From positions 109,690 to 173,689 of the forward strand of contig CAJNOJ010000222.1 of the NCBI GenBank assembly GCA_905250025.1: 64,000 nucleotides of DNA. The letters run 5' to 3'. Source of the DNA: Adineta ricciae (lineage: Eukaryota > Rotifera > Eurotatoria > Adinetida > Adinetidae). The position numbers and the translations under genes were made by a program. The notes below the pieces were generated by a model. That model was not told where the DNA came from. It did no database searches and saw nothing but the letters and a program-made list of their open reading frames with translations. Shown here in pieces: positions 3,042 to 30,180 of this stretch (position 1 is its first letter; each line of letters starts with the position of its first letter).

Positions 3042-4447
3042 CTAGTTATTCATCATAGCTACAATTAACGAGACGATCATCAATAACCATTGAAGATTGT
3101 GATCAGCAGCAGCAGATGGCATCTGTGCGCTTGTCGTTGTTGCTGATGATCTTGGAATGCTTGTCGAACTAGATAAGCGCGTTGTTGAACCTAAATGAAA
3201 TCAAGGTTAAAATATTCTAATGAAAGTCTCGTATTTACTTGAAACTATTGTACGAATTGTTGACGACGCTGTTGTTAGGCGAGTAGTGATTATTGTTGTG
3301 CTTGTCACATTCGCTATTGAAGTCAAGTAAATATAGAAGCAGTTTAAATTGAAAACTTACAACAAATGGCCGAGAATTTTTGAGTTCGATTATTTTTAAA
3401 ATCAGGAACATAAATTGAATAATCTGGACCAAATTTAAAATTATATGGATTATATAATTGATTTGATGATGATCCAGCTGTTAAAGTTCCAACAATAAGA
3501 CTGCCGACCGTTGCTCCGACTTGCCATTTCACAATCGAACTAGTTGTAAAACATAAAATATATAAATTTTTGTTTCCATCTCCAATCACTGATATTGGAT
3601 AATAAAGCACACTTAAACTCGAACCAGCTACACCTGTTTGTCCAGCTACTGTTGTTCCATTCTTTGCTCCTGACAACCATTGTTGAATTCGATGATTATA
3701 TGTATCAGCAACATATAATGTATTCGCATCCTTTGTATCAACAAATAATCCGAATGGGTAGTTAAACTGGTCAGCATTTGATCCATTACTTCCACCAACA
3801 ATGATACCTGTTGTGGGTGATTCCCAACGAACAATTCGATGATTATATGTATCAGCTATCCAGATAAACATCGTATTTGGATCAAAAAACATTCCGCAAG
3901 GTGCGTTCAACTGATTTGCGCCATAACCATTTCCATATCCACCTGCTACGACCGTTCCATTCATATTCGCAGTTGACCATTTTACGACACGACCAAGTTT
4001 CACATCAAGAATGTAAAGATTTCCATTGGTATCACCTTGAATGCCAAGGACTGTAGCAAAAAAAGAAACACTAAAATTTAATTTCTTCTACAAATATAAA
4101 CGCTCACTATAAGATGACTGATTGAAAACTGGTCCTGTCATCGCATTTATAAACGTCCGTTCGACTGTCGAATTGGGCCATATACGGCGTACACGACCAT
4201 ATCCGCTATCTAATACATATACAACATTGTTTTGATCAGCATATAAATCTCGGGGTTGATTAAGATTTGTGTCATCAGTCAATGTTTTAGCATTCGATTC
4301 CCATTGTAATGTGAGACAATTCTCACCGATTGCGAAACATTTTTCCATTGAACATCTGCAAACATCTCTTTGTATGGAATTAACATAGACCAAAATACGA
4401 TTAACTTACGTGAACAGAAGAAAAATGATGAAATATAGTTGCTTCAT
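3042..4447 (-). CDS. NHL-repeat beta-propeller protein with signal peptide and GPI-like tail
   Basis: Five exons with GT-AG borders and consistent phase: 4410-4447, 4108-4355, 3361-4050, 3239-3313, 3042-3190, giving 399 residues. Exon 1 encodes a signal peptide (MKQLYFIIFLLFT). Exons 2-3 hold NHL repeats with the repeated signatures YVADTYNHRIQQW, WIADTYNHRIVRW and YVLDSGYGRVRRIW, alternating with Gly-rich turns, as expected of a beta-propeller. Exons 4-5 encode a Ser/Thr-rich stalk that ends in a short hydrophobic tail (WLLMIVSLIVAMMNN), typical of a GPI-anchor signal or a terminal TM. It is likely a cell-surface or secreted recognition protein. The ligand is unknown. I chose this start because it gives the signal peptide. 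Confidence 0.85.
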
Positions 4448-5389
4448 ATTCGTCTAAATGAGAATATTCAAGAATGCAAGCGATTTTATACCATCGAGTG
4501 AAATGAGAATTTCTAACGAGAAAAAAAAAAGTAATCATCTTGAAAAGAAAGGAAGTGTTGTTTTCAAATTATTCATTTGAACAACGAGAAGCAAAATAAA
4601 AAAAAAAGAATATCATTTACTGAATAGCTCTTTTCGAACTGTATTAGAAGACTTACATGAAAGTTTAACCGACGTGAAACGTCACCCTCTATATTTTCTG
4701 AATTGTACATTTGTGTTTGCTCCTGTTGATTATCAAATCATAGTGAATTCACATTATTGACGTTTCCAGGTAGAAAAATCAGAATGTTATATATTATTCT
4801 ATTCGTGAGGGAGAAAAGCACTTCACTGGGAAAATTAATTGAAATCTAAGTCATGCTTGTCGAATTCTCCTCGCTATACTTGTTCTGCTATGGTTTCACT
4901 CAAAAATACCCTGAGTTTATATTTATGAAAAGTCAGTTATATTACTTTTCAGTATAGGTATGTTTTATTCATTTCAAATCGAGTGCGGATATCTTCTCAT
5001 GACGATAGAATAACAGAAAGAAAACATTTTTCCTCTGTAAATATCAACTGTTGAAATAGGGCAAATATATCTACACTCGCAAATTCTTAAATGATGATAT
5101 TGTTTTTGTTTCTTATTTAGAGGAGGATGAGTTGCGACTCCGCAAGTAGCTATAGTTATGTATGGATGAGATACAGAAGAGTTTATTGCACATACTAGTA
5201 AGTTGCTTTACTGTTAGCTCTCCAATGAATTCGATATAAGCTGAGTCCAGAATGGAAGCATATGGAGAACGACTTATCATGCTCAAATTTGATTTATCAA
5301 GTCCTCATCTAGATAGCATCATAAGATACTGTTAACATTTATTATGAGAGTGCATATTATATTTGCACACCTCGCCTCCAAGAAAATGA
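4448..5389. other. Intergenic between NHL and ART-TPR genes
   Basis: AT-rich with several poly-A runs. I see no conserved coding frame. Both neighbouring genes are on the - strand, so it should contain the NHL promoter and the ART-TPR 3' UTR. Confidence 0.5.
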
Positions 5390-6454
5390 TTACTGTCGAA
5401 TCGAAAAAGATTTATGACAATATTCGAGCGCTTTTGTATAATCACCCATGTTCTTATACACGACACTGATGTTGATATAGGATGTAGCCAGATGAGGATG
5501 ATTTGCAGGAAGTGATTGTTCCCAAATTGAAAGAGCTTTGTGATAGTATTTGAGTGCTTTTGGATGGTCACGCATATCACTATATACACCACCGATGTTG
5601 TGGTAAGAGGCCGCCAAGTCAGGATGATTTGTAGGAAGTGACTGTTGTCGAATTGAAAGAGCTTTCTCGTAGTATTCAAGTGCTTCTTGATAGTCACTCA
5701 TATGATGATATACCAAACTGATGTTGTTGTAGGACGTGGCCAGATGAGGATGATTTGCAGAAAGTGATTGTTGGTCGACTGAAAGGGCTTTCTCATAATG
5801 CTCGAGTGCTTTTTGATATTCACCTGTATGACTGTACACACTACCAATGTTATTGTAGAATGTGGCTAGATGAGGATGGTTTGCAGGAAACGCTTGTTGA
5901 TGAACTAAAAGTGCCTTCTCAAAATATTTGAGTGCTTCTGGATAATCACCCATATTCTTATATATCAAACCGATGTTGCTGAAAGATGTGGCTAGATCAG
6001 GATGATTTACAGGAAGCGATTGCTGTTGAATTGTAAGAGCGCTCTGAAAATATCTGAGTGCTTTAGGATACTCACCCGTCTGAGTATATACACTACCAAT
6101 ATTGGTGTAGGATGTGGCTAAAACAGGATGATTTGCAGGAAGTGAATGTTGCCCAATTGAAAGAGTTCTCTGATGGTATAAGACTGCTTTTGGATAGTCA
6201 CCCATATAATGATACACCAAGCCTATGTTATTGTAGGACGTGGCCACATCAGGGTGATTTGTAGGAAGTGATTGTAGTTTAACTGAAAGGGCTTTCTCAT
6301 AGTATTCGAGTGCTTTTTGATATTCACCTGTACGACTGTACACACTACCAAGGTTGTTGTAGGACGTGGCCAGATGAGAATGATTTGCAGAAAGTGATTT
6401 TTCGCAAATTTCGACTGCTCTTTGACAAAGCTCTATTGCTTTCAGATATGCGCC
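5390..6454 (-). pseudogene. TPR half of the ART-TPR gene, cut off by a stop codon in block 1
   Basis: This frame continues directly from the ART gene after a TAG at 6455-6457 where block 2 has CAG. It encodes about eight kinesin-light-chain-type TPR repeats of 42 residues with the recurring core NHPxLATSYxNIGxVYxxxGxYxKAL, and ends FSIRQ-stop at 5390. An internal ATG at 6343 could start a TPR-only protein, but there is no promoter evidence for this. In block 2 the same repeats are fused to the ART domain. Confidence 0.75.
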
Positions 6455-7846
6455 CTAATGGTCCTGGACGGTAGCAAGTTGATGATAGATTAGCCATTTA
6501 TCATTATCATTCGACGTTTGACTTAACAATACATTGTAAATTTCTTCAGCTTTCTGATTCTGACTCAGCTTGATTAGCAGTTGACCTAATCTACTCCAAC
6601 CATCTCCATCTAAATAATTCTCTTGTCGAATATAATTGGTAAGTGTACTCAGTTCTTTGTCAACGTCGCTAGTTAGTAATATATTCACTTCGTAGATTGG
6701 GCGATCGGTACAAAGCGGTTTGATCTCATGTATGCGAAATACACTATGCATAGTAAACAACACTTCAGCTTCAACGCCGAATTCACTAACATTTTCAATA
6801 AAAGCAAATGGCGTGGTTGTTTGAGTAGGATCAACCTTTATGTTAAAAAGAATTCCCACTAAATCAGAATTGTATGCATTACTGTCTGCATAATGATTGG
6901 CAATGTCGCGTTCCATGGTAGTAGATAAGAAGTAGTTGAATGACATCAAACCACCTTTAGTCTTAGATAGTTCTTCAAAGTCTTCTCTAGACAATCCTTG
7001 TCCACGATAAACGGTAAAGATGTTCGAAAAAGATGTATTAATAATTTGTTCTCTATGCAATTGTTCGATGTGTCGATGAAGATCAGCGATGAAGAATCCC
7101 ATTCGCACGAGGATTTCACCATCTATTACTCGTAAGGCACGATTGAGCATGGAGTGTAAGATAGTACCTCTAGTATACCACCAAATAGGCTCATTTGCAA
7201 GATAGTCATTCACTAATTGATCGGCATCGCTAGATTGTTTACTATTGATAGTTAATGCAGTGGGATAATCATGGATAAATTGTTTTATATGTTCGTCGCC
7301 AAAGTTTATGGTTAATAAGACTTCCTTGAAGAGTTGCGTATACATGAACGATGGATTGAGTTGATCCAGTCTTCTTTCTGATGCTAAGAAACTTATTGGC
7401 ATAGCATTCTGTTCGTACCGATTAAATATATCTTTTACTGCTTCATAGAGTGACTTTATGTCTATGAAAACACCCTTTATCTTAGTCCAAATTGTCGCCC
7501 ATGTTTCATGACGACGTTGATTTTCACAGAAGATGAAAATTGAATCCAATTGAGGCATATCATGAATACAAGGAACAAGGTATCGTACAACTGAATCAGA
7601 AAGGATTATGTATACTTTGCTCTGACTACTATTCAAAATAAACTCAACGCATTCGTCATTATCGGTAAACGTATTTACATGACTCACAATGCGTTCAAGT
7701 TGTCTAATTGTATATTGAAAATCTTCGTTGTTGTGATCCTCACAATCGTGCAACCATATCGTAACAACGCTAGGCATCTTATGAACAGCAATGAGTCGAC
7801 CATTGTCGCCTTCATTTGAAGTTGTGACTGTTTCTCGGCTTGCCAT
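6455..7846 (-). CDS. Arginine ADP-ribosyltransferase (ART) protein, truncated before its TPRs
   Basis: 463 residues from ATG 7846. The N-terminal 135 or so residues are alpha/beta-like and include a segment ending YIILSDSVVRYLVPCIHDMP; this domain precedes ART domains in many bdelloid proteins, and I cannot name it. The ART domain has the R-S-E triad of arginine-specific transferases: Arg in VYRGQ, Ser in FLSTT and the ExE motif in VEAEVLF. Such enzymes move ADP-ribose from NAD+ to arginine side chains. A premature TAG at 6455-6457 (CAG in block 2) removes the eight TPR repeats, so the product keeps catalysis and loses its probable protein-binding arm. No signal peptide is visible, which suggests an intracellular role. 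Confidence 0.8.
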   Translation of the reverse strand: MASRETVTTSNEGDNGRLIAVHKMPSVVTIWLHDCEDHNNEDFQYTIRQLERIVSHVNTFTDNDECVEFILNSSQSKVYIILSDSVVRYLVPCIHDMPQLDSIFIFCENQRRHETWATIWTKIKGVFIDIKSLYEAVKDIFNRYEQNAMPISFLASERRLDQLNPSFMYTQLFKEVLLTINFGDEHIKQFIHDYPTALTINSKQSSDADQLVNDYLANEPIWWYTRGTILHSMLNRALRVIDGEILVRMGFFIADLHRHIEQLHREQIINTSFSNIFTVYRGQGLSREDFEELSKTKGGLMSFNYFLSTTMERDIANHYADSNAYNSDLVGILFNIKVDPTQTTTPFAFIENVSEFGVEAEVLFTMHSVFRIHEIKPLCTDRPIYEVNILLTSDVDKELSTLTNYIRQENYLDGDGWSRLGQLLIKLSQNQKAEEIYNVLLSQTSNDNDKWLIYHQLATVQDH

Positions 7847-9661
7847 TGATACTATAGATCGAATCGTTTCAATGTGTAGCTAGTTTTGCAAAAAAAATTC
7901 TCTCTCTCGGCTCCCTTTTTCCAACGTGGATGAGATGTTTTTTTCCGTTATATTTACGTGTAGTCAGTATATGTTTTGCCAACAACTGAGGGATGATAAG
8001 AACGTTACAATCCGTAGTTTGTTATCATCAAACAGGATAGAGTCAAGTAAACTGAAAAAAAAACTTTCATAAAGAAGATATCCTTCTCACCAAATACAGC
8101 AACACGTAATTTGCATTATGTAATCGTGATGATAGATAAAATAACGCGTGCTAAAAAGATTTAGTTCCTATAGAAGTATATTTTTTGTGTTGATCTTCCG
8201 AGCGCTTAGCTTACAGAAAAAACAGCATAACCTCATGTTGGTTTCTCCCAACACTAAACATTTTATTGTGCAAAAATGAAACTTGGAATTACTGTATGTC
8301 TTTTTTAGATTTCTATAAAAATGAAAAATCCGAACAGAGAATCATGCAAACACTCCCGAATTTTCACAGTGACCGAAAATGCCTGCGGGAAAACGACAGT
8401 AAGACCTTTGCAGAAAAAAAATACAGACAAGGTAATTCTGGACATGTCGATGAGAATGCAATCGAGAAATAACCAGATTTTACTACCAGCTTCAGTGTAA
8501 TAGTGACTAAATTTACATAATGGGGTCCATCAATCGCCACAATCTATAGCCATAAGCCGAACAAAAGGTAATTGTTCGTTTACTTACTAGATTAAGTCTA
8601 CTGAAGTTTTGCACACACCAAATGCTTGATCCTCTTTTGATGAAACTCAACATATAGAATATGAAACCAAACATTACACACAATACATTCTTCTTAATCA
8701 GAATACTCAAATCACTCACTTAGATCAGAGATGACACTGTACTTCACCTCTATGATAAACAACGTGTTTTCAAAAGCTCCTCTTGATTTAGACTACAAGG
8801 TGACAAACCTTGAGATAAACCATGCATATCTTGTTTCCTGGTCATTTGCTCTTACTTTGTAGTTTGTTTAGGTTGCTGATTAGCTCCTCCGTGTAATCCT
8901 ATATCCGTTTCCATTGCTTAGTACTAACACCCCATAATAACAAATTGAATGCGTCTAATGTTGGGATCTTGATTCGCCAGGTATACTCTACTTCCTGCTA
9001 ATAGCATGATTGCATTCAACGTTTTATCGAGAAAACTTTCCAATGGATAGAGATGGGTACATCGCCGCCAAACTACCACCTTTCCACTACTCTTGTTGTC
9101 GCAAATATTTGTCTACCTTGCAGCATGCCACTATTTTCACCAGTTTTCAAGATGTTTGATGGTATAGCCATAATAGAATCGGCTGCTAATGATGTTCCCA
9201 CATGTGCTGGAGCTTCTCTTGTTACTTGAAAGCGAGAAAATCATAACCAACATACTATATACAAAATAGAAGTGCAGTTTGTAAAAACAAAACCACATGT
9301 CCCTCGAGACTGTATTGAACAGTACGAGGAAATTACAAAAATCCAGTAGATGTCTAGTTTGAATTCGAAATACAAACCTTGGTATAAAACCAGTTCTTCA
9401 GACAGACATAAGCCTACTTGAACATGCTTCGTTTTCATATTCAGTCATAAATACATCTGTGTGCGTGAAATATAATTAAGCAAGAGTAAAATAAATTTAT
9501 TTATATCATTAGAAAAGAACAGAGGGATACGCTATATACGCGTTGAATTAAAACTCTGTATAGTTCCTATTTCCACAATTGATTTCCGAAATTATGATAC
9601 ATAACTTAATCTGGATTGATGTTCGAATTCACTCTCAAGACAACTAATGTAAGCAATGCAT
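7847..9661. other. Long intergenic stretch with a possible decayed coding segment
   Basis: 1.8 kb without a confident gene. Short frames at 8266-8472 (+) and 8513-8719 (-) are mostly conserved between blocks but look like chance frames; the + one is shifted in block 2. The part from 8930 to 9438 is described separately as a possible coding remnant. Confidence 0.4.
8930..9438 (-). pseudogene. Unidentified possible coding remnant
   Basis: On the - strand, ATG 9436-9438 opens a frame that could splice at a GTTTGT donor after LVLYQ to a CTTTCAAG acceptor near 9227. It would then read on as VTREAPAHVGTSLAADSIM. Another frame below it reads LESFLDKTLNAIMLL and QDPNIRRIQFVIMGC before a stop at about 8930. 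The pieces are not joined in one clean frame. Both blocks keep them with some amino-acid changes. I do not recognise the protein; it may be a decayed gene. Confidence 0.25.
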
Positions 9662-11252
9662 TTAAATCAGCTGAACACGTTGAATTCTATGATTTCCAGT
9701 ATCAGCAATATAAAGAAATGTTTCATCGTCATTCAGAGCGATTCCATATGGGGAAGAGAGCATAGTAGCACTATTACCTGAAGACCCACTTGGGTCGCCA
9801 ATCATAGTGACACCCGATTGTGCACCTTGACTCCAGCGTTGAATTCGATGATTGACGCTGTCTGCGATATACAAGGCTTTTGTCTTTGTCGACACATATA
9901 CGGCAAAAGGCGTATTCAGTTTGTTGTTCGATGCGCCTTGGCCATTTCCACCAGCCACTGTCGTGCCATTATTCGGATATCCCCCAAACAATGAAAACCG
10001 TTGTATTCGATGATTATTCGAGTCACTTACATAAATATAAGAATTATTTTCATCCAAAAATACGCCACGTGGTGTATAAAGAGAAAACGAATTGCTACCA
10101 GCAACATTCGAGCCGGCTATAATAGTTCCATTGGGATTTCCTGGTTTCCACTTCAAAATACGATTGTTGCTGGAGTCGGCAATATAAAGAGTGCCATTAC
10201 TGTCAATTGCGATTTCTCCTGGCGTATTCAGTGCATTCGTTCCAGTTCCACTAGTACCACATATACCCACCACAACTGAAGGCATTGGGGTTGTAACTTG
10301 CATACTAGTGAATTTTATTACACAATGTTTATTATAATCACTAACGTATAAATTCGATCTTTGATTTGGATCAATCGCTATACCAAAGGGTAAGCCAAGA
10401 TAATTTCCACCACTCCAAGTTTGCGCAACAAGTGACACATTGTTTGTAGTTATATTATAATCATAAAGGCGAATCACTTGACTTCCACCTGAGTTAGCCA
10501 CGATTATAGAATTATCTGTGGTTTTGTTAACAATAATGCTGTAAGGATAATTCAAACCGGTCGTAGGGCTATTTGCGATTTGTGTAGTACTGCTTGCGAT
10601 TGTTGTGCCCATTGACAATGAGAGTGCTTGAATAAAAATAGCTAATAGTTAAACATGGGAAAAACAAACGTGCACACTTACGTCCACATTGATTAAACTG
10701 TAAACAGGTGAAAGTAAGATCTGCTCGGCACATACTCAAGTTTTGTTGACAAGTTGAGCCAAGTATAGGTGATTGGGCCGAACACATTGATATCGTTGGA
10801 TTCCAGTACGTATTTTGAGGACATGTCCATGTGAAATTTCCTCCACAAACCAGATAGCGGTCTTCTGGAAGAGTTGAAGAGCATGGTTGGCCATAAGCGG
10901 CATACAAATCATTTGAAAATTGTATCACACCCACTTGTGAGTTGTTTATTGATGATGAAATGATTGTTCCATGAAGATTAATATCACCTTGGAAAATTCG
11001 GCATTGGTTTGGCAGAACGCCATTAATGTCAAATATCCGACATAAAATATTTTGATTGCATATTTTGACACATGACATCAATAAATTGTTCTCATCGATG
11101 AATGTTGAAAGAATTTGACCAGGGTAATTACCCGGTGAAAATCGCAAATTAGTATTGGATAATGTTATACGTGATTCATGAATACTTTGATTTTCTTTCC
11201 AAAGCGTTGAGAGAATTGCGAAGTAGAGGCAGATATGTTTTGTTGAAAACAT
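9662..11252 (-). CDS. Secreted PAN/apple-like plus NHL-repeat protein
   Basis: Two exons, 10682-11252 and 9662-10626, separated by a 55 bp intron (donor GTAAGT, acceptor TTCAAG) with matching phase, give 511 residues. ATG 11252 begins a signal peptide (MFSTKHICLYFAILSTLW). The open frame extends 40 codons further upstream but is less plausible there. Residues of about 35-120 form a PAN/apple-like domain with paired Cys (MSCVKICNQN, CRIFDINGV, QCRIFQG). A short Cys-rich module follows (VCGGNFTWTCPQN, CLQFNQCG). The C-terminal 320 residues are NHL repeats (YIADSSNNRILKW, YVSDSNNHRIQRF, YIADTGNHRIQRV), probably one six-bladed propeller. It is likely an extracellular adhesion or recognition protein. 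Confidence 0.87.
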
Positions 11253-11665
11253 ATTGAACAGGAAAAGGATGTGTGTGCTGTGTGAACTTTGTTTATTAGA
11301 AAGAATGAGACGGGATGCATTTCGAGTTCTTTTATTTATAGCCGAATCTTCTAGTACTGATGCTGCCGTCACATGAGTGAAATTAGTTCATAATGGAAGT
11401 AGAAAGCAACTCTTAGAATCCTTTTTAAATGACTGTCACTTAACGCAAAGCATTGATTCGAATTCTCTTTTGCTTATTGAACCTCTTACAAACAAAACTT
11501 ATAAGCAACAAGAGTAGTGTAGAGCTGAAACTAAATTCAATTTCAGTTTTTTTTGACGAAAGAGAGAACGCTAGGGCAAAAATAATCATTCTGGATTAAT
11601 AAAAAAAAAGAGACAGTACAGGAAAAGATTCGATTTTCTTTGTTCACTTTTTAAATGGCAAGCAA
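11253..11665. other. Intergenic, no gene recognised
   Basis: Lies between the start of the PAN/NHL gene and the end of the F-box gene. It includes poly-A/T tracts and nothing that looks coding. Confidence 0.5.
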
Positions 11666-12652
11666 TTATTGCAAATGCTCTTTATAGTTCACGAGGAATG
11701 CAACGCTTTCCCTACTAGACAATGACACCGTAAATTTAGGACGTCGAAACTGATCGATTACATATGGAATCAATGGAAATGTTTGACGAATAGTCTGGAA
11801 CTCATTAAAATTGACACCATATTTTGTTCGAGTATATATATCAAGGTATCGTAGATGCTTCCATGAGGATAAAAACTGAAGCCAATTTGCATTGTTGAGA
11901 AATGATCGATCATGTACAGCTGTATCACAGTCTAATCTTACATGTTCAACATTCTGAGTTGATTGTGCCAGCAAATATAACTGTTCAAATTCAATCGAGT
12001 TAATTGTCAATATCAACGTGGAGAGGTCATTCAGATTAGCAATAGGGTCATGTTGAATCTTCGAATGAGCTCGACTACTAGTTACAAACCCACTGAAATA
12101 TCGAATAGATGGAATATATCGAAGAATATTTGAATAGAGATAGGCAAATGATAGGCAACACTTCGATTCCATCTCGAAATATTCGATTGTAGAAACTAAC
12201 TTGTCGTTTTTGTTGTCATAATTTACGGGAGTGACTGTAACTCGACCAGAACATTGTAACGAATTCTTTATTTGACAATATTTTAGTTGCGGAATTCTAA
12301 AAATAAAGTCAATAATGGATGTGATACTTACATTTGTGGCGTATTTGAATACAGTTAAAGAACGAAGCGTTACAAATTGCTTGGGATCCACTGTTCGTAT
12401 CAAATCGTAATCATAACATTTCAGAGATCTGAGTTGTTCCAAGCAAATAGCTGATAAAATTATGTCGAGATTGTTTAGATCATTTATCAATGAACAATGT
12501 AATAATAAATGATAATCAGTTAACAGTCGATTGAAATAGACATTTAAATTATAAAATGAGTCGAGTAATTCATTAACATTTAAATATTCAAATATGGAAA
12601 TATGTATTTCGCTGCTCAAGTCTTCGAATGCAGTTGTTTTCGTTTGCGTCAT
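11666..12652 (-). CDS. F-box protein with leucine-rich C-terminal region
   Basis: Single exon, 328 residues from ATG 12652 (MTQTKTTAFEDLSSE). Residues of about 8-45 match an F-box: FEDLSSEIHISIFEYLN followed by a short helix pair ending in YFNRLLTDY. F-boxes bind Skp1 and recruit substrates to SCF ubiquitin ligases. The remainder is Leu/Ile-rich with spaced segments such as LRSLTVFKYA and LSTLILTIN, suggesting degenerate leucine-rich repeats for substrate binding. The frame is open for 40 more codons upstream, but block 2 aligns from this Met (MAQTKTT), so I chose it. This kind of F-box protein is common in bdelloids (family knowledge). The substrate is unknown. Confidence 0.75.
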   Translation of the reverse strand: MTQTKTTAFEDLSSEIHISIFEYLNVNELLDSFYNLNVYFNRLLTDYHLLLHCSLINDLNNLDIILSAICLEQLRSLKCYDYDLIRTVDPKQFVTLRSLTVFKYATNVSITSIIDFIFRIPQLKYCQIKNSLQCSGRVTVTPVNYDNKNDKLVSTIEYFEMESKCCLSFAYLYSNILRYIPSIRYFSGFVTSSRAHSKIQHDPIANLNDLSTLILTINSIEFEQLYLLAQSTQNVEHVRLDCDTAVHDRSFLNNANWLQFLSSWKHLRYLDIYTRTKYGVNFNEFQTIRQTFPLIPYVIDQFRRPKFTVSLSSRESVAFLVNYKEHLQ

Positions 12653-12929
12653 AGGATGAGAGCAACCTTCTTCTGTGACTACACAAATATACTCGTCATT
12701 TATTATTCTTTGACGGGCTTGATAAGAAAAAAAAACCGATGTTGATTGTTCTTCTTTCTCTCTGCTTTTCACATTTTGTGTGCGAAAAACCGGTTACATG
12801 TGTTTGCAAGCATACTCGCAAGCTATTGCGAAAGACACCTGAACTCTTTATTGCAGAAGCAGTGAAAAAAAAACAAATGAGTTAGATATAGAAATTTTAC
12901 GCAATTCCTGAGTAAAATCTACGGGTCAT

Positions 12930-13400
12930 TTATGAAGCAGCAGCACCACCGGACACGAGACAAGTGGACAGTCCTAAGATGACATCGAGTGTAATGAATG
13001 TGCCTCGAGTGACCTCAGCTAATTGCGGATGACAATAAGTTGAAAGAGTTGCATTTTCATACTGCATAATATTCATTGAATTCGATGCAGAAAATCTTGC
13101 ATAATTACTGTATATTGTCCAAACTAAGAAGAATAAAGCAAGAATTGTCACAAGAATTATCAAACAGGTAATTAACTTTTTCCATTTGAGTTTACAAAAA
13201 AGAAATATCATTGGAACTGCAAGAAATAGTAACATTCCAGTTGAACCAGACACTAAGTTAAGCCATGGAAACATTGGTTGAACAGGACATTTATTAAAAT
13301 GCATTGCTCCCATAACAAGTTGGATAATAAAAAGAGTTAGAAATCCAAGTGAGAGCATTACTGCAATGGTGATCATCACGATGGTCGAATAGGAATACAT
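12930..13400 (-). CDS. Four-transmembrane protein of unknown family
   Basis: 156 residues, single exon. Four hydrophobic segments lie at about residues 7-31, 44-68, 75-97 and 132-152. Between TM3 and TM4 is a loop with NATLSTYC that could be glycosylated if extracellular. The layout resembles MARVEL, claudin or tetraspan proteins, but I do not see the claudin W-GLW-C-C or tetraspanin CCG signatures, so no family is assigned. The block 2 copy is nearly identical, with mostly conservative changes. Confidence 0.65.
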   Translation of the reverse strand: MYSYSTIVMITIAVMLSLGFLTLFIIQLVMGAMHFNKCPVQPMFPWLNLVSGSTGMLLFLAVPMIFLFCKLKWKKLITCLIILVTILALFFLVWTIYSNYARFSASNSMNIMQYENATLSTYCHPQLAEVTRGTFITLDVILGLSTCLVSGGAAAS

Positions 13401-14121
13401 GATTGTATTGAAATTAAACTTTGAATGTGCGTCGACCTTTTCTAGTAAAACGTATTTTTATATTGATTGTCATAAAATGTTCTTTGGTTTTTTCCTAGGA
13501 AAAAGCGTTGGAGTAAATTAGTCATTTAAGTTTTACAGCTATGATTCAATTCGATCGAACGATGAGTTTCTCCAACTATTTGCTGTCTTACGTTGAAAAC
13601 ATCATGAATACAACAAGTAACAGAGCGAACATCACATATCCGTTTTCAATCATATCATGACGAAAGTATTGCATGAAGGTGAAGCCTCTGCTACTCATCA
13701 TGAACTTCCACACTAACGTTTTGTTGACAGAAATTGACTTTACATCAAAATTGCGCGTGTTTAATTGTAGTTATATAAAGTCAATAGTATGATGTATTTT
13801 GGAATACAGCATTACTGATACAGAGCTTCTTCCGAGCACTTCAACTTGCGATACTATGCGAATATGAATTCAATAAATCTAGGTTTGCTATAGCATGGAA
13901 ATGTTCATTCAAAATATAAATGTAATTATAACTGCGGAGAATGCACAATTGATACATTTGATTGTTTGGCAATGAGCGCCATCTTTCGATGAAATTTGTT
14001 TATAGGCAGTTGACAAAAACCAGTTGTAATGCGATTGATTTTTTCTAACTATCTAACGCGTGCGCTAATATGAATGCATCTACGATACAAATTTATCTGA
14101 CATAAAGTAGAACGACGGCCT
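13401..14121. other. Divergent intergenic region upstream of the ART-NACHT-HEAT gene
   Basis: 720 bp between a - strand and a + strand gene, so it should hold both promoters. No TATA or other element can be called with confidence. Block 2 differs by small indels, including loss of about 15 bp near 34503. Confidence 0.45.
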
Positions 14122-17100
14122 ATGATGGGTAGTCGTTATGTAGACAATGCTTCGGAGTTCGAAAGCATCAATCGAAACCCAATATTTGAGTATGAAGATT
14201 TACCACTCCAGTCTATAGAAGAAACATTACAATGTATTATATCTGACATTCCTTGCATCATGGATTACGTCAAAACAGCTAAGAATAAATGCAATCGTGC
14301 TTCAAACATACTAACACTTGATGAATCCGCAGCCATCTATCTCTATTCAATGTCATCACCAGTTTATAATCAGCTCAACAGTACTCTTCGAGCTCACGAT
14401 CGTACAACATCAAAACTATGGTTTCCTTTCCTAAAACTCCTCACAACGGCTCTCAAAAGATTACCTTCAATCGAGACTACTGTTTGGCGAGGAGTCAGTT
14501 ATGATGATACTTTGGCATTCGTTGAAAATGATGTACAATATTGGTGGAGTGTAAACTCATGTTCTAAGGCGCCTAATATTGTCAAACCATTCTTGGGAGA
14601 AAAGGGTACTATATTTGCTATTGATGTCATCAATGGCAAAGACATTTCAACGTTTGCCGCAAATTGCGAAGAACTAGAAGTTATTCTTATGCCCGGATCT
14701 CGTGTACGCCGCAAAAATGAATCACTTTGTCTGTCCGATCATATCATTCTTCACTTGGAAGAAATAAGTTCTGACAAGTAAATCAACACTTAACTTCTTT
14801 GAACATTATTAACAGTATTTTTTAGTGACACACAATTAGGATCGAACTATTTGTTTGATATAGTGAAGCAAAATTATCTGTACAACAGTCGCATCGAACG
14901 TTTGATAAATCCGACCAAATCGTTTCCGATCGAACAAAGTTACATCAATTTATCAGTAGTTACTTCTCAAGAACAACACAAACGAGAACAAAAATTGCGC
15001 GGCGCTGCATACAGTGACCACATGTTAAGTTCTTATGAAGAAATCTATGGTACGAAGAGTCCAATAGATATCCAAAATATTTTTCAATCTTGTGAGAAAG
15101 ACATGAATCAAGTTCTTGTATTTGGTCGAGCGGGTATCGGAAAATCAACATTCTGCCGTTACGTCACTTATCAATGGGCAAAAGGTGCATATTGGCCACA
15201 GTATGACTTACTTGCTCTGATTCCATTGCGTCGTTTGACCGCCAATCGTTATCCTCCAATGACATCTGGTCAGAATTATTCTCTTATTGACGTGTTGAAA
15301 AAAGAAGTATTCTCATGTGAACTTTCCGAAAGAGAAAATGCTTTGTTAGAAAAACAATTCGATGTTAAGAATATCCTTTGGGTGTTAGACGGCTACGATG
15401 AAATCATACAAAATGAACCAGGACATTTAGAAGAGTTGTTGGAGAAGTTACTTAAAACTCCTCATCATATTGTTACATCGCGTCCGTATTTAAATACTTT
15501 ATCATATCATGCACAAATGGAAATCACTGGTTTCACAGATGAAAATATTGGTCAATACATACAACAATTTTTCGATCAAATGAAAAACGAAGTCGAGGAT
15601 GCGACAGTCAAACATCAAACTTTAATGAAATTTTTGAAATCAAATCCTAGCATATGGGGTGTCGCTCATATTCCAGTCAATTTGGAATTGATTTGTAGTC
15701 TCTGTAGCAATCAAGATTGGTCAAAGACAGAACATCTATCGATAACAACATTGTATAGCATGATAACAGAATGGCTATGTCGTCGCTACTTAAAAACATC
15801 GAATGACAAGATTTCTCAATTGCCCGACCATGAGCTTTACCAATGTTGTAGAGGTGAGCTGAAATTTTTGGAAAGACTCGCTTTTACTGCAATGGAAAAC
15901 AATACAATCATTATCCGACCTACTCTACTAAAAAGAACTTTAAGAGATACCAATATTATCACTCAAGATCATCCACACATTCTTAATATTGGCATTCTCA
16001 AAAGCTTTGCCAAAGAAGGGGTCGGCACTCAAATTGAAATGAATAAAGAATACTATTTCGTTCATCTCAGCTTTCAAGAATACTTTGCAGCACGCTATTG
16101 GACAAATACTCTCAGTGAATCGTCAGCAGAGAATGTCCTTGAATTCGTTCAGCGTCATAAGTATAACCAACGATATGCATTGGTATTTACTTTTATGGCT
16201 GGTTTACTGAGTGAAAACGATGAAATGACACTTTTGAATACCTTTTGGAATCGGATTCTACAAGAGCCATTGGATTTAGTGGGATTACGACACATCGAGC
16301 TTATTGTCATTTGTCTTGGAGAAATATCTTCAAATTCTAACTTTCCTCGACGACACGATTTCCTCTTGCCGATAGCCGCGTACATGCAGCATAATCTGTT
16401 GGCGAAAAACCAAATTATCCTACAGCATCTGGCACACGTATTACGTAAAGCCCCCTTTGTGATATGTGAAGAGATAATGATCACTACGCTGATCGCTTTA
16501 CTCCAAAGGAACGAAGCAGATGTCAAAACAGAAGTATTACAATTTATATGTTCATTGAACGTGTCCAATATACCGAGTCGTCTTAGCAATTCCATAAATG
16601 CTTTACTAACTGATAACAGTGACGAAGTTAAAATCTATGCATGTGACACTATTGGAATACTTGGTGAACAATCAGCAACGTTGGAGATACTAAACAGATT
16701 AGTAAATTTACTAGATGATAAGAACGACAGGGTCAGACGAAGTGCGTGCTATTCTTTGGGACGAATGGGTGAAAAAGTAGGGACAGCAGAGTTTGTTAGT
16801 AAAATATTACATACAGTAGGAAATGAAAGTTGTAGTATTCATTTAGATAGTTTCTCTATTCTTATCACTATGCCGGAAAAAGTGATTACAGAGGAAATAG
16901 TTAACTTACTGGTAAATGCACTTAACAATGAAAACGATTTTATTAGGAGCCATGCGTATGACATTTTGATGAAGATATCTAATCAGTTAGTAGCAACTGA
17001 AATGATTAGTAGATTGACGACTTTATTAGAAGATAGACGTGATGATGTCGTACTGCATGCTTGCACACTTCTTGATAAGATCGGTGAAAAGGCAGGTGTA

Positions 17101-18789
17101 CCTGATGTAATCAATAAATTAATGACGAAAGCATTGAAACATGAGAGCTTCCTAATCAGAGTGCTGGCATGCTCCACTCTGAGCCAAATAAGTCAAGGAA
17201 TACTTCCGAGTGAGACCCTATCCATGGTGTTGGCTGCATTAAAGGAGAAGAGAATGACCTTGAAAGAGAATGCGTTCTATGTTCTCGCACACATGGGTCA
17301 GAATGCAGCGACAGCTGAAACAATCAATGAATTAAAGAAGGCAACTAAGCATGAGAACGAATATATTAGAGCAAGCGCGTGCAACGCTTTCATGCATATG
17401 AAAGAAAGCGTACCAATAATCGAAATAAACAGTATATTAATGAATGCATTAGATGATGAGAAAGAATGCGTTAGAGCTAGTGCATGTAAAGCTGCCGAGA
17501 AAGTACTGGCAAGACAAGAAACTAGTGAGCTGCTGATGAAACTAAAGGGTGCGCTTAACGATGAAAGTTTTACTGTTAAGCTTGCAGCGTTTGATACTCT
17601 TTGCACAGCTGGAGAGATAACAGCGGCAACTGAGATAATCGATGCGTTGATAAACCTGTTAGAAGACAAAAATGAACATATCAGAAGAGATGCCCACCAA
17701 GCTATTGTCAAAATCAGTGTAAAAGCGACAACGACTGAAGTGATCGACAAACTAGTGAAGTTACTAGAACATAGGGACGCACAGGTTAGAGGGTCGATGT
17801 GTCACGCTCTTGAAGGTATGTGTGAGAAAGTGGCAACTAATGAAGTGATTGAAAAAGTTGTAGGATTATTAAAAGATCCAGATACAAATGTTAGAGCAAG
17901 CGCATGCACTACATTGTGTCTCTGGAGTCGATTAATACCGATATCATGGGTGGCTGACGATTTCATCCATGTATTAGGAGATGAAGATGAACATGTCAGG
18001 CACTTAGCATGCATTGCCATGCAGAATATCTGTGAGCAAGAAACCACATTTGAAGTGATTCCGAAGCTGGTTAATGTACTGGAAGATGAAAATATGCATG
18101 TTAGAGATTCAGCATATTTTCTTCTCGGTTGCATGCGAGAAAAAGTCGCAACGACTGAAGTGATTGCCAAACTTGTAAATGCGCTCAATGATGAAAATCG
18201 TCATATAAGAAGTAGAGCATGCCAGGCTCTTTTTCAAGTAAATGAAAAGATCCTGGTGACCAAAGGTATTGAAACGATAGCGAATGCGCTGATTGATGAT
18301 GACATTCAAGTGAGAGCCAATATGTGTTTTCTTCTTCGGCAGTTAAAGGAACAACTACCAAGCGTATCGATTAGTAGATTGATTGTTCCGCTTAATGGAG
18401 ATGATCGTCATGTTTCACATGATGTTGCAGAATTTATTGGAAAAAATTTAAACTCTTCCGAGATTATTTCCGAACTAGGTTCGAGTAAAATTTTAGAACT
18501 TTGTGAGTCGAAATTCGCTTCCATTTGTTTAAAAAATGTGTCTGAGGAGCAGTTAATCCAACAATTTATAGCTGAGGACAATGATTGTTGGTATCGTGCA
18601 ATAACAAACTTGGCATTAGTAAGAGAAACTGCTATCGTAGATAAAAATGATACCATCGTAGTATACGGCAGAAAAGGACCACTGGAATTGCCTATTTCGT
18701 CATCCAGACATGACAAACTAGTTGAAGCTTTTAAGGATCAAAGAGAAAAACTGCATCTATTTTATCCTTGTAATTCTCTTAGTAAATGA
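14122..18789 (+). CDS. ART-NACHT-HEAT fusion protein (NLR-like STAND NTPase with ADP-ribosyltransferase)
   Basis: Two exons, 14122-14777 and 14826-18789, joined by a 48 bp intron (donor AAGTAAAT, acceptor TTTTTTAG) in matching phase, give 1539 residues. Exon 1 is an ART domain with the R-S-E signature: R123 in VWRGV, S146-C-S148 in VNSCS, and E184-L-E186 in EELEVIL. Exon 2 starts with a linker, then a NACHT NTPase: Walker A GRAGIGKST at 319-327, Walker B ILWVLDGYDE at about 402-411, and a VTSRP sensor motif. From about residue 740 to 1420 there are many HEAT repeats with the core NEVIxKLVxLLxDxxxxVRxxACxAL. Block 2 begins at the second ATG (14125), so either Met may be the start. By analogy with NLRs, the HEAT array would sense, NACHT oligomerise and ART act; this is inference. 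Confidence 0.85.
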
Positions 18790-20205
18790 TAACTGTATCA
18801 AGAAAGTATGAATATCGTTTAGTAGAATTAGTGACAGATGATGTTTGTTTGTTTATTGTATGTTTTTCTATAAATATTAAAGTAAAAGCTTTTCTTAACT
18901 AACAAGGGACACTCTAAGAAGGCAATTGTGCATAATTCACAATACTCATATTCGTGTACCCACCCTCAAGTCGATTTCTTTTCGACCTACGAAAAGATAT
19001 CATTCTCCTCTGATTCAGATTTTGTAAAGCATCACTTTCGTTTGGCTTATTTAAACAATAAAAGCATGATATTTTCTTCTATGAAGTATAATGAAGCGGT
19101 GACTTCATTGACATTCACTTTCATCCATTAATCATGAAAACCTTGAAATTCGACTCGTATTATAGAAAAGGATCGTTTTTAACAATTACAAATCGGCATA
19201 CTGTCACAGTTTTGGTTCTCGTTCATATGTTGTTATCGATAGTTATGAGTGTGCTAATGAGATATTGTTGTAAAAAGATCATTGAATAACTATCTTATCT
19301 ATAATGAATGTTGAAATCTCTATGTGTCGAAAAATCGGCTCGCAAAGTTCATAACAAATATAATGCAAACTTACATATCCCGTTTTTTCTCTTCACGCTT
19401 GCTTCAATCTTATAAGAATAAAAATATGATGTTAAATTAGTAACGATTATTACTTAGCATATTTTCATCACAATTTACAAGAGCTGGATTTTAATGTTTC
19501 TAAATATCTCTTCTACACCTTTATTTACACCTCCGCTTTTTTTATAGTTTTGATACTGTTAAACTGTGTCGTCTTCTTTAAATTTTCATATCGCTCTACT
19601 TTTCAACAGGCAAACAGAAAAGATTCTTTTTCTGATTACCTATCAGAATGCTCTTTTCTCAACTTGAAGTTAAGATCTCTTACATTTCAATTTTCTACTC
19701 ATTACTTGAAAATTTGTTTACTTAGGGTAATTACTTTTACCTTAAGATAAAAAAAAGCATTCGAATTCAAAATATTAACTCACAGTGCTGATTCAATTTA
19801 AACTTTTTATTTCGCTTAATCGAAAGATTTTGTCATCGAATGAATAGAACGGTTTGCGGCAGTTCGACAATTATACAACGTAATGATGAATCACACTTTT
19901 GGAGAGCAAAAATTAATATATCATGAAGATACCTCTACCGCTATTTTTAATTGAGTTTTGCCAAATTACACGCTAATTAGAATTTCTTTCTGCAAAGAAT
20001 TAAAAAGTCAAGCGACTGCTCCATAATACACAATAGATGTTGCCTAGAGTGTATAGCTCACTCGCATAACTCACAGGCAGTTAAACTATAGGCCAATCTT
20101 ATTTTCATTTATTCGTATCCTTACGTTCGCTACTATTGTTGTTAAAACATTTCGTGTATGGAGGGTTCTTCAAGATTTGATTTGGCTTAAGTAACAACAA
20201 TATAA
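18790..20205. other. Intergenic between the NACHT gene and the multi-unit membrane gene
   Basis: AT-rich 1.4 kb with no convincing gene. About 107 bp around 19818-19924 is missing in block 2, and block 2 instead has a 92 bp extra segment at 39389-39480. Confidence 0.5.
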
Positions 20206-20762
20206 ATGACCATTAAAAGTCTCTTTTTTTGGCTACTGGAGCATATTTACCATTACAATATTTTCATACCCGATGAAAATGATTACGATGATGATGATAA
20301 TGACGATGCAGCGAAAGATCCTGCAATCATCCTTAAACATCAATTATATTCCACTCGATTGTACATTCCTCTACTTATCAGTAAGCGTGAAATACATTGT
20401 GATTCGTTTGAATATCAATTTTTTCTGTCAATCCCCTAGCAATCTTGTATATTCTGATTTTAATTGCTGTGATCAGTCCACAAGATCGATCGATTACAGT
20501 CTCGAACATTACTCCAACACTTTTCAATCAGCTCTCTCTCGAACATGCGGACACACTGTCTTGTCCATGCTCAAATATTGCTATGCCATACAAAGCATTT
20601 GTATCGCATATAATCTACTTTCATCCGGTGTGTTCGAGTGTATATGTGAGCAAAGAATGGATACAAGCACTTTATCTCACCTATGCCAGTTCGTTGTTGG
20701 TGAATGATTTTCGAACAACTGCTAAATCTCAAGTAAGTCAGCATTATTGAAAGCAAATGATT
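20206..20762 (+). CDS. 5' exons of the multi-unit membrane gene (block 1 copy, cut by N)
   Basis: Exon 20206-20380 encodes a cytoplasmic N-terminus with an Asp-rich run (NDYDDDDNDDAA) and the start of a TM helix. Exon 20440-20732 completes the helix and enters the first ectodomain (CPCSNIAMPYKAF). The donor GTAAGT at 20733 is followed by intron sequence that ends at the N at 20763. It is the counterpart of 40231-40759. Confidence 0.65.
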
Positions 20763-25911: not shown

Positions 25912-28338
25912 TTACTGTCGAATCGAAAAAAATTTGTGACAATATTCGAGCGCTTTTGTATAATCACCCATATTCTTATACACGACACCGATGTTGATAT
26001 AGGATGTAGCCAGATGAGGATGATTTGCAGGAAGTGATTGTTTCCAAATTGAAAGAGCTTTGCGATAGTATTCAAGTGCTTTTGAATGGTCACGAATATT
26101 ACTATATACACCACCGATGTTGTGGTAAAGGGCCGCCAAATCAGGATGATTTGCAGGAAGTGACTGTTGTCGAATTGAAAGAGCTTTCTCGTAGTATTTA
26201 AGTGCTTCTTGATAGTCACTCATATGATGATATACCAAACTGATGTTGCTGTAGGACGTGGCCAGATGAGGATGACTTGCAGGAAGTGATTGTTGGTCGA
26301 TTGAAAGGGCTTTCTCGTAATGCTCGAGTGCTTTTTGATATTCACCTGTACGACTGTACACACTACCAATGTTATTGTAGAATGTGGCTAGATGAGGATG
26401 GTTTGCAGGAAACGCTTGTTCATGAATTAAAAGTGCCTTCTCAAAATATATGAGTGCTTCTGGATAATCACCCATATTCTTATATATCAAACCGATGTTG
26501 CTGAAAGATGTGGCTAGATCAGGATGATTTACAGGAAGCGATTGCTGTTGAATTGAAAGAGCGCTCTGAAAATATCTGAGTGCTTTGGGATACTCACCCG
26601 TCTGAGTATATACACTACCAATATTGGTGTAGGATGTGGCTAAAACAGGATGATTTGCAGGAAGTGAGTGTTCCCAAATTGAAATAGTACTCTGAAGGTA
26701 TAAGACTGCTTTTGGATAGTCACCCATATAATGATACACCAAGCCAATGTTATTGTAGGACGTGGCCATATCAGGGTGATTTGTAGGAAGTGATTTTAGT
26801 TCAACTGAAAGGGCTTTCTCATAGTATTCGAGTGCTTTTTGGTATTCACCCATATGCTCATACACGCCACCGATGTTGTTGTAGGACGTGGCCAGATGAG
26901 AAGGATTTGGAGAAAATGATTTTTCGCAAATTTCGACTGCTCTTTGACAAAGCTCTATTGCTTTCAGATATGCGCCCTGATGGTCCTGGACGGTAGCAAG
27001 TTGATAATAGATTAGCCATTTATCATTATCATTCGACGTTTGACTTAACAAGACATTGTAAATTTCTTCAGCTTTCTGATTCTGACTCAGCTTGATTAGC
27101 AGTTGACCTAATCTACTCCAACCATCTCCATCTAAATAATTCTCTTGTCGAATATAATGGGTAAGTGTACTCAGTTCTTTGTCAACGTCGCTAGTTAGTA
27201 ATATATTCACTTCGTAGATTGGGTGATCAGTACAAAGCGGTTTGATCTCATGTATGCGAAATACACTAGGCATGGTAAACAACACTTCAGCTTCAACGCT
27301 GAAGTTACTAACATTTTCAATAAAAGCAAATGGTGTGCTTGTTTGAGTAGGATCAACCTGTATGTTAAAAAGAATTCCCACTAGATCAGGATTGTATGCA
27401 TTACTGTCTGCATAATGATAGGCAAAGTCGCGTTTCGTGGAGGTAGATAAGAAGTAGTTGAATGACATCAAGCCACCTTTAGTCTTGGATAGTTCTTCAA
27501 AGTCTTCTCTAGACAATCCTTGTCCACGATAAACGGTGAAGATGTTCGAAAAAGACGTATTAATAATTTGCTCTCTATGCAATTGTTCGATGTGTCGATG
27601 AAGATCAGTGATGAAGAATCCCATTCGCACGAGGATTTCACCATCTATTACTCGTAAGGCACGATTGAGCATGGAGTGTAAGATAGTACCTCTAGTATAC
27701 CACCAAATAGGTTCATTTGCAAGGTAATCATTCACTAATTGATCAACGTCGCTGGATTGTTTACTATTGATAGCTAATGCAGTGGGATAATCATGGATAA
27801 ATTGTTTTATATGTTCGTCGCCAAAGTTTATGGTTAATAAGACTTCCTTGAAGAGTTGCGTATACATGAACGAGGGATTGAGTTGGTCCAGTCTTCTTTC
27901 TGATGCCAAGAAACTCATTGGCATAGCATTCTGTTCGTACCGATTAAATATATTTTTTACTGCTTCATAGAGTGACTTTATGTCTATGAAAACACCCTTT
28001 ATCTTAGTCGAAATTGTTGTCCATGTTTTATGACGACGTTGGTTTTCACAAAAGATGAAAATCGAATCCACTTGAGGCATATCATGAATACAAGGTACAA
28101 GGTATCGTCCAACTAGATCAGAAAGGATTATGTATACTTTATTCTGACTACTATTCAGAATAAACTCGACACATTCGTCATTATCAGTAAACGTATTTAC
28201 ATGACTCACAATGCGTTCAAGTTGACTAATTGTATATTGAAAGTCTTTGTTGTTGTGATCCACAGAATCGTGCAACCATATCGTAACAACGCTAGGCATC
28301 TTATGAACAGCAATGAGTCGACTATTGTCGCCCTTCAT
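25912..28338 (-). CDS. ART-TPR protein, intact fusion (block 2 copy)
   Basis: 808 residues in one exon. Residues 1-135 are the unnamed alpha/beta domain. The ART domain has R271 (VYRGQ), S298-T-S300 (FLSTS) and E349-A-E351 (VEAEVLF). Residues of about 460-808 are eight kinesin-light-chain-type 42-residue TPRs. The codon that is TAG in block 1 is CAG here, so ART and TPR stay joined. One extra G in GGGC near 28330 shifts the frame relative to the upstream ATG used in block 1, so this copy must start at the internal ATG 28338 and lacks about 14 residues. Predicted intracellular mono-ADP-ribosyltransferase whose TPR arm binds partners. Confidence 0.87.
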   Translation of the reverse strand: MKGDNSRLIAVHKMPSVVTIWLHDSVDHNNKDFQYTISQLERIVSHVNTFTDNDECVEFILNSSQNKVYIILSDLVGRYLVPCIHDMPQVDSIFIFCENQRRHKTWTTISTKIKGVFIDIKSLYEAVKNIFNRYEQNAMPMSFLASERRLDQLNPSFMYTQLFKEVLLTINFGDEHIKQFIHDYPTALAINSKQSSDVDQLVNDYLANEPIWWYTRGTILHSMLNRALRVIDGEILVRMGFFITDLHRHIEQLHREQIINTSFSNIFTVYRGQGLSREDFEELSKTKGGLMSFNYFLSTSTKRDFAYHYADSNAYNPDLVGILFNIQVDPTQTSTPFAFIENVSNFSVEAEVLFTMPSVFRIHEIKPLCTDHPIYEVNILLTSDVDKELSTLTHYIRQENYLDGDGWSRLGQLLIKLSQNQKAEEIYNVLLSQTSNDNDKWLIYYQLATVQDHQGAYLKAIELCQRAVEICEKSFSPNPSHLATSYNNIGGVYEHMGEYQKALEYYEKALSVELKSLPTNHPDMATSYNNIGLVYHYMGDYPKAVLYLQSTISIWEHSLPANHPVLATSYTNIGSVYTQTGEYPKALRYFQSALSIQQQSLPVNHPDLATSFSNIGLIYKNMGDYPEALIYFEKALLIHEQAFPANHPHLATFYNNIGSVYSRTGEYQKALEHYEKALSIDQQSLPASHPHLATSYSNISLVYHHMSDYQEALKYYEKALSIRQQSLPANHPDLAALYHNIGGVYSNIRDHSKALEYYRKALSIWKQSLPANHPHLATSYINIGVVYKNMGDYTKALEYCHKFFSIRQ

Positions 28339-30180
28339 TTGAAATTGTGACTGTTTCTCGGCTTGCCATTGACACTATATATCGAATCGTTTCAATGTGT
28401 AGCTAGTTTTGCAAAAAATTTCTCTCTCCCGGCTCCCTTTTTCCAACGTGAATGAGATGATTTTTTTTCGTCATATTTACGTGTAGTCAGTATATGTTTT
28501 GCCAACAACCGAGTGACGATAAGAACGTTACAATCCGTAGTTTGTTATCATCAAACAAGATAGAGTCAAGTAAACTAAAAAAAAACTTTCATAAAGAAGA
28601 CATCCTTCTCACCAAATACAGCAACATGTAATCTACATTACGTAATCGTGATGATAGATAAAATAACGCGTGCTAAAAAGATTTAGTTCCTATAGAAGTA
28701 TATTTTTTGTGTTGATCTTCCGAACGCTTAGCTTACAGAAAAAACAGCATAGCCTCATGCTGGTTTCTCCCAACACTAAACATTTTATTGTGCAAAAATG
28801 AAACTTGGGATTACTGTATGTCTTTTTTAGATTTCTATAAAAATGAAAAATCCGAACAGGGAATCATGCAAACACCCCCGAATTTTCACAGTGACCGAAA
28901 ATGCCTGCGGAAAAACGACAGTAAGACCTTTGCAGAAAAAAATACAGACAAGGTAATTCTGGACATGTCGATGAGAATGCAATCGAGAAATAACCAGATT
29001 TTACTACCAGCTTCAGTGTAATAGTGACTAAATTTACATAATGGGGTCCATCAATCGCCACAATCTATAACCATAAGCCGAACAAAAGGTAATTGTTCGT
29101 TTACTTACTAGATTAAGTCTACTGAAGTTCTGCACACACCAAATGCTTGATCCTCTTTTGATGAAACTCAACATATAGAATATGAAACCAAACATTACAT
29201 ACAATACATTCTTCTTAATCAGAATACTAAAATCACTCACTTAGATCAGAGATGACACTATACTTCACCTCTATAATAAACAACGTGTTTCCAAAAGCTC
29301 CTCTTGGTTTAGACTACAAGGTGACAAACCTTGAGATAAACCATGCATATCTTGTTTCCTGGTCATTTGCTCTTACTTTGTAGTTTGTTTAGGTTGCTGA
29401 TTAGCTCCTCGGTGCAATCCTATATCCGTTTCCATTGCTTAGTACTAACACCCCATAATAACAAATTGAATGCGTCTAATGTTGGAATCTTGATTCGCCA
29501 GGTATACTCGAATTCCTACTAATAGCATGATTGCATTCAACGTTTTATCGAGAAAACTTTCCATTGGATAGAGATGGGTACATCGCCGCCAAACTACCAC
29601 CTTTCCACTACTCTTGTTCTCGCAAATATTTGTCTACCTTGCCGCGTGTCACTATTTTCTCCGGTTTTCAAGATGTTCGATGGTATAGCCATAGTAGAAT
29701 CGGCTGCTAATGATGTTCCGACATGTGCTGGAGCTTCTCTTGTTACTTGAAAGCGAGACAAGCGTAACTAACATACTATATACAAAATAGAAGTGCAGTT
29801 TGTAAAAACAAAACCACATGTCCCTCGAGACTGTATTGAACAGTACGAGGAAATTACAAAAATCCAGTAGATGTCTAGTTTGAATTCGAAATACAAACCT
29901 TGGTATAAAACCAGTTCTTCAGACAGACATAAGCCTACTTGAGCATGCTTCGTTTTCATATTCACTCATAAATACATATGTGTGCGTGAAATATAATTAA
30001 GCAAGAGTGAAATAAATTTATTTATATCATTAGAAAAGAACAGAGGGATACGCTATATACACGCTGAATTAAAACTGCGTATTTCTCCTGTTCCCACAGT
30101 TGATTTTCGAAGTTATGATACAAAACTTAATTTGGATTGATGATCGAATTCACACTAGACAACTAATGTGAGCAATGCAT
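28339..30180. other. Long intergenic stretch (block 2)
   Basis: Counterpart of 7847-9661. It contains the possible remnant at about 29460-29965, with some replacement changes relative to block 1 (for example IRVYL for SRVYL). No confident gene. Confidence 0.4.

Follow-up and report, generated by a model that had tools for sequence, protein, structure and literature searches.

A gene in a 64,000-nucleotide stretch of the genome of the bdelloid rotifer Adineta ricciae (contig CAJNOJ010000222.1, positions 109,690 to 173,689; the window, below) has a predicted spliced product (14122-18789) composed of an ADP-ribosyltransferase (ART) domain of the R-S-E type, an NLR-type NACHT with winged-helix domain (WHD), and an array of HEAT repeats. 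As judged from the sequence, the existence and domain anatomy of this gene are nearly certain. It is one of a bdelloid family whose N-termini are interchangeable (ART, TIR, or both) and likely, with a probability of roughly 0.6, encodes an intracellular NLR-like STAND receptor with ART output.

Gene structure and domain anatomy

The predicted start, ATG 14125, is common to the window gene and a second copy of it (Table 1). Pfam scores were 26.5 bits for ART, 53.6 bits for NACHT (PF05729), and 174 bits for HEAT_2. A deposited A. ricciae protein (an unnamed product, not a transcript) is identical to the predicted spliced product from residue 47 on and uses exactly the same 48-nt splice. An earlier note on this DNA had proposed an ART-NACHT-HEAT fusion across this intron; the Pfam matches and the identical splice bear it out. 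A chance frame or an artefact was ruled out by the Pfam matches, the deposited splice, the family members, and the match of the ART to known folds.

A phase-2 GT-AG intron 3′ of the ART was present in all ten ART-bearing copies (window gene, second copy, and eight others), with lengths between 48 and 416 nt and T as the first exonic base. In the nine copies for which this was computed, the split codon is completed by exactly one base in the frame of the next domain, the splice sites having been picked by eye. Two database proteins, P0066 and P0073, read through the junction between ART and the next domain in one polypeptide without extra sequence; judging from their sources, both appear to be intronless frames. 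With an assumed total of 600 ARTs, an ART would lie upstream of a NACHT by chance at ∼0.002 per locus; the 16 loci are not independent, however, as some are probably homologous copies of each other. Introns of bdelloids are usually short (majority 30-100 bp; mean 104 bp in A. ricciae), according to a published survey (PMC5916493). That ART and NACHT-HEAT are two adjoining genes, or that the ART exon is a separate short protein ending at the TAA within the intron, might be suspected from the in-frame stop directly after the donor site and from the very large number of ART-bearing open frames in the A. ricciae genome. This is very improbable, because deposited proteins are spliced through the junction, the intron phase recurs in every ART-bearing copy, P0066 and P0073 cover the junction, and the upstream adjacency is far above chance under the stated assumptions.

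The window ART carries R, S-x-S, and E-x-E on the ART fold, the hallmarks of R-S-E mono-ARTs (PF01129), in line with the R-S-E assignment in the note. A search of the PDB with the single ART sequence gave no match; a nine-row profile was needed to reach ART structures. Fold and catalytic residues are common to rat ART2.2 and the bacterial proteins 6drh, Vis, and HopU1 (R-S-E clade), from which the window ART differs by being fused to a STAND switch. It is predicted to transfer ADP-ribose to arginine. Vertebrate ecto-ARTs have an N-terminal hydrophobic stretch; none was seen in the window protein when its sequence was read by eye, and instead of being framed by a signal peptide and a glycosylphosphatidylinositol anchor, the ART is, by the same inspection, the N-terminal part of a longer protein.

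In the NACHT, the P-loop and LDGYDE columns were invariant or nearly so across 32 rows. TSRP is what we take to be the sensor motif, and FVHLSFQEYFAARYW is presumably the winged-helix motif. The winged helix and the helical domain C-terminal to the nucleotide-binding domain are present, as indicated by the FVHLSFQEYFAA motif and Foldseek matches to NOD2, NLRP3, and NLRC4; the match to NLRC4_HD2 stayed below its cut-off. The nearest solved relatives by sequence were NLRP1, NLRP3, and rabbit NOD2 (5irm), and the best 42 fold matches of the NACHT model (predicted local distance difference test score 80.6) were all NLRs, NOD2 ranking first (5e-14) and NLRP3 and NLRC4 being included, which agrees with the NLR character claimed before. 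Animal NLRs (NOD2, NLRP1, NLRP3, NLRC4) share Walker A and B, TSRP, the FxHLSFQE winged-helix motif, and the helical region with the window gene, and the human inflammasome receptors contain the same type of switch. In contrast, animal NLRs have CARD, PYD, or BIR at the N-terminus where the window protein has an enzyme domain, and C-terminal leucine-rich repeats where it has HEAT. Thus, of the features of an NLR, the NACHT with both Walker motifs was found, and the C-terminal leucine-rich repeats of the vertebrate definition and the death-fold or BIR N-terminus were absent.

Variation within the HEAT arrays was assessed on 1,682 pattern-picked 32-residue units from 196 proteins (the database relatives described below), giving 914 within-protein pairs, not independent of each other, that differ at one to six positions; the pattern restricts positions 9, 13, 20, 21, and 24, which are conserved by construction. 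Positions 18, 19, 22, 23, 26, and 30 accounted for 46% of 4,242 differences (19% by count), compared with 15% (16% by count) for the five other free positions (7, 8, 11, 14, and 16). Aromatic residues (FWYH) made up 9.5-22% at five of the six variable positions and 2.4% at position 30; elsewhere they reached at most 4.5%, except at position 25 (9.6%). The best solved matches to the HEAT part of a 33-row profile were mainly alphaRep binders (9sah, a synthetic fusion; 6fsq; 6ft5; 4zv6), a match that speaks for the arrays of the relatives, as the window contributes only its ART exon to that profile. The variable positions of alphaRep proteins bear the same six numbers (Table 3 of PMC3754942), and a common register is suggested by this numbering and the small residues at position 23, not by an alignment.

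Table 1. Coordinates of the features in the window, and the A. ricciae loci by N-terminal domain.
Feature	Position or loci	Strand	Remarks
Exon 1, R-S-E ART domain	14122..14777	+	Pfam ART stretch 14308-14760
ART catalytic residues	R123 14488-14490; S146 14557-14559; E184-x-E186 14671-14679	+	exon 1
Intron	14778..14825	+	phase-2 GT-AG, 48 nt, in-frame stops; one substitution in second copy
Exon 2	14826..18789	+	linker, NACHT, WHD/helical domain, HEAT array, C-terminal tail
NACHT (Pfam stretch)	15109..15576	+	Walker A GRAGIGKST 15124-15150; Walker B LDGYDE 15385-15402; TSRP
Putative winged-helix motif	16057..16101	+	FVHLSFQEYFAARYW
HEAT array	16594..18366	+	11 units of 32 aa by family matrix, mostly 35-residue spacing
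Second copy of ART-NACHT-HEAT gene	34822..38094	+	95%; broken at single-N join 36033
20-kb head-to-tail duplication	first arm 285..20762; second arm 20764-41050	.	∼95%; one N at 20763
Neighbouring gene, ADPrib_exo_Tox ART + TPR repeats	25912..28374	-	open frame
Homologous copy of ADPrib_exo_Tox-TPR gene	5390-7879	-	split by one in-frame stop
ART only	L009, L012		A. ricciae loci
ART-TIR-NACHT in series in one gene	L010, L013, L014, L016, L019, L021		A. ricciae loci
TIR only	L011, L015, L017, L018, L020, L022, L023		A. ricciae loci

A bdelloid family with interchangeable N-termini

In the A. ricciae genome (130 Mb), PF05729 marked 40 places, 38 of them over the cut-off, and 20 of the 40 NACHT regions were examined with family hidden Markov models (HMMs). 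Fifteen of these are NACHT-HEAT-type genes with an N-terminal domain, which is ART only in two, ART then TIR in six, and TIR only in seven (Table 1; L022 starts at a contig end, the sequence 5′ of it being unseen). L024 and L025 matched the NACHT HMM and neither ART nor TIR; L026-L028 gave no NACHT HMM match. Including the window gene, 9 of 16 genes carry an ART. Deposited A. ricciae proteins also combine ART, TIR, and NACHT (e.g., P0122 and P0128). Database searches with the window NACHT and the TIR-NACHT of L010 (best 120 of 532 and best 120 of 506 matches, respectively) gave 196 distinct proteins, which local HMMs classified as TIR-NACHT (89), ART-NACHT (38), ART-TIR-NACHT (14, of which P0130, P0131, P0152, and P0179 showed a partial ART match of only ∼100 residues), other (6), or too short at the N-terminus (49); an upstream exon may be missing from many of the TIR-only and short models. 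The species named among them include A. ricciae, A. vaga, A. steineri, Rotaria, and Didymodactylos. ART-NACHT fusions, whose absence from other bdelloids the earlier note would have taken as refutation, thus exist, for example, in A. vaga (P0002) and A. steineri (P0004). The note's picture of a single odd NLR-like protein, in contrast, was too narrow: the fusion is real, but the family also comprises TIR-NACHT-HEAT and ART-TIR-NACHT-HEAT members.

Like TIR-STAND receptors (plant TNLs, bacterial and fungal TIR-NACHT proteins), the bdelloid paralogues carry the TIR before the NACHT, with a glutamate kept in at least 90% of 103 rows; the window member differs in having an ART and no TIR, both occurring together in the 14 listed relatives mentioned. 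A quick NACHT tree required 17 changes of the ART/TIR label over 113 rows (reduced from 147 by merging those at least 90% alike, after removal of rows without P-loop match, with <50 residues upstream, or with <300 in the cut stretch). As models that start at the TIR exon blur the distinction between TIR and ART-TIR, no ancestral state is claimed. Three of the six "other" proteins, P0078, P0090, and P0105 of Didymodactylos carnosus, carry a different ART-like region on the same NACHT-HEAT core, following ankyrin repeats in P0078 and P0105; the ART reading was made by eye, P0078 also having a precomputed PF01129 match. This suggests independent recruitment. Genome-wide, ARTs are very strongly expanded in A. 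ricciae: all 150 scored candidates matched PF01129, out of 553 first-look candidates, which is a lower bound.

Relatives also occur outside the rotifers. Prokaryote genomes, scanned with the NACHT alignment, contained 56 matching loci, of which L029 from a gammaproteobacterial metagenome-assembled genome (MAG) was the strongest (32%). Among the best 120 of 206 relatives of L029, many were chlamydial and a few bdelloid or fungal, and PF01129 was not seen among them (Pfam annotation being incomplete in some rows). The bacterial NACHT-HEAT proteins (Parachlamydiaceae, gammaproteobacterial and Campylobacteraceae MAGs) share the core and, in part, an N-terminal enzyme domain, which is, unlike that of the window gene, trypsin-like or TIR_2. 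The annotation of the NACHT proteins P0235 and P0280 includes PF00644, the PARP catalytic domain, which is another type of ADP-ribosylating domain on a related chassis. The occurrence of NACHT-HEAT relatives in fungi, chlamydiae, and further bacteria leaves room for a non-animal origin of the scaffold. A tentative explanation, compatible with a receptor function, is horizontal transfer of the NACHT-HEAT core from bacteria (or the reverse) with the bacterial role kept, the likeness to NLRs reflecting old STAND kinship and not descent from animal NLRs. This explanation fits the three best matches with a prokaryote label, which reach 27-32% across most of the NACHT-WHD, as well as the HEAT repeats of L029, which lies beside an ankyrin-TIR frame, and the trypsin-like N-terminus and HEAT of L030. 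However, vertebrate NLRs are the best fold matches, the other 53 loci mostly reach 19-26%, animals are unevenly sampled, and the assignment of MAG contigs may be wrong. Swappable N-termini and near-identical repeats that differ among themselves are likewise a feature of fungal NLRs with highly conserved, diversifying repeats, but these are WD, ANK, and TPR (HEAT included) repeats (PMC4986451), whereas those of the bdelloid family are HEAT. A fungal effector survey (PMC9815663) uses neither "ADP-ribos" nor "ART domain" in its main text.

Proposed function and alternatives

We infer sensing, activation, targets, and a role in immunity of the window protein from its architecture. The HEAT array would bind a non-self or damage ligand, nucleotide exchange in the NACHT would lift auto-inhibition and lead to oligomerisation, and the clustered ART domains would attach ADP-ribose to arginines of host or invader proteins at the expense of NAD+, which would shut down the affected cell or signal from it. 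In ART-TIR members, the TIR would be a second NAD-consuming or signalling output. While the anatomy of this modular ART/TIR system is plainly visible, its function is inferred. The chances are about even that the family represents an expanded set of modular receptors. In these, a common NLR-type NACHT-HEAT chassis would be coupled, by exchange or by stacking, to two NAD+-using enzyme folds that are unrelated to each other (arginine ADP-ribosyltransferase and TIR), and the HEAT arrays would be diversified at the surface used in engineered alphaRep binders; an asexual animal lineage would thus have a resistosome repertoire centred on NAD.

Several observations weigh against a receptor. The HEAT repeats of the window gene are degenerate (11 recognised units with gaps), and of the 26 amino-acid changes compared between its two copies, 6 fell on the variable positions of the repeat, which is no excess (Fisher p 0.60). 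HEAT arrays often serve as plain scaffolds. The NACHT fold matches had moderate TM-scores on the query (∼0.3-0.5), the ratio of nonsynonymous to synonymous substitution rates of the ART exon is based on 12 changed codons, and ART catalytic sites were substituted in two rows (R to K in one, the first E to A in the other). Against the anti-phage STAND models of PADLOC 2.0.0, neither the ART exon nor the NACHT region nor the TIR region of L010 matched at E 0.001, and NCBIfam gave no match either.

The degenerate repeats, the lacking excess, and the scaffolding role of HEAT arrays would suit a STAND ATPase with a regulatory or scaffolding role (in stress, desiccation, or self-recognition) whose ART acts on a fixed host substrate, as would the numerous ART-bearing frames in the genome, one of which, in the window, also has TPR repeats. 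The large family with swapped ART and TIR N-termini and the family-wide variation on one repeat face, including its aromatics, make such a role unlikely. Of the note's idea that HEAT is the likely sensor, the data support a variation like that of a binding surface, on one face of the repeat, for the arrays of the family but not between the two window copies. The catalytic substitutions might also indicate that the window ART is inactive as an enzyme and works in NAD sensing or docking; this is highly unlikely, as the catalytic residues are otherwise unchanged despite an overall identity of only 40-50% between the window ART and seven other aligned loci. Gaps were left out of the ART counts, and P0024 was set aside as a linker-only match. 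From its E-x-E motif, the ART is expected to modify arginines of proteins rather than simply to deplete NAD. The suggested "animal counterpart of NAD-targeting STAND defence proteins" is, for this reason, an analogy. Overall, the original observation is confirmed and its interpretation partly supported, an intracellular receptor with ART output being the likely function.

Genomic context and significance

The second copy lacks ∼980 bp of the first (most of the NACHT) at 36033 and diverges from it after 38094. The fact that this gap coincides with an N means that it provides no evidence for a natural NACHT-less form. The 20-kb tandem probably consists of two haplotypes wrongly joined head to tail in scaffolding, given its 95% identity, the single-N joins, the median divergence of 4.55% between separately assembled A. 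ricciae homologues, and suspected scaffolding errors at gaps; yet two homologous blocks in tandem on one scaffold have also been reported (PMC5916493). Other single Ns are located at 33175, 36033, 39089, and 40829, near-identical ends flanking 33175 and 40829. More head-to-tail near-duplicates (41832-46121, 48671-54444, and 56072-64000; 93-98%) have single-N joins nearby, and the scaffold seems to chain haplotypes. At 38095-39088, the second copy enters AACGCGTTT-like repeat-rich sequence without blastn match elsewhere in the window.

Such proteins already stand in public databases, under the labels NAD(P)(+)--arginine ADP-ribosyltransferase and NACHT domain-containing. No paper on bdelloids and ADP-ribosyltransferase, with or without NACHT, was found in the literature searched, which excludes most subscription papers; in the available text of PMC7145615 and PMC11291939 (bdelloid, NLR, and NACHT), bdelloids appear in reference lists only, and a study of fungal challenge in bdelloids states that metazoan genes were not closely explored (PMC11258130). 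Thus, the sequences are public, but the ART-NACHT-HEAT architecture is apparently undescribed there. If the proposed function is true, animals would possess NLR-like receptors whose output is an ADP-ribosylating enzyme, in some members stacked with TIR. Effectors of this logic are more familiar from the immunity of bacteria and plants, and NAD+-based immunity would thus be connected across kingdoms. Some of the many bdelloid ARTs would obtain a role, and repeat arrays varying at a fixed binding face would provide a testable explanation of the way in which an animal without sex achieves diversity of recognition.
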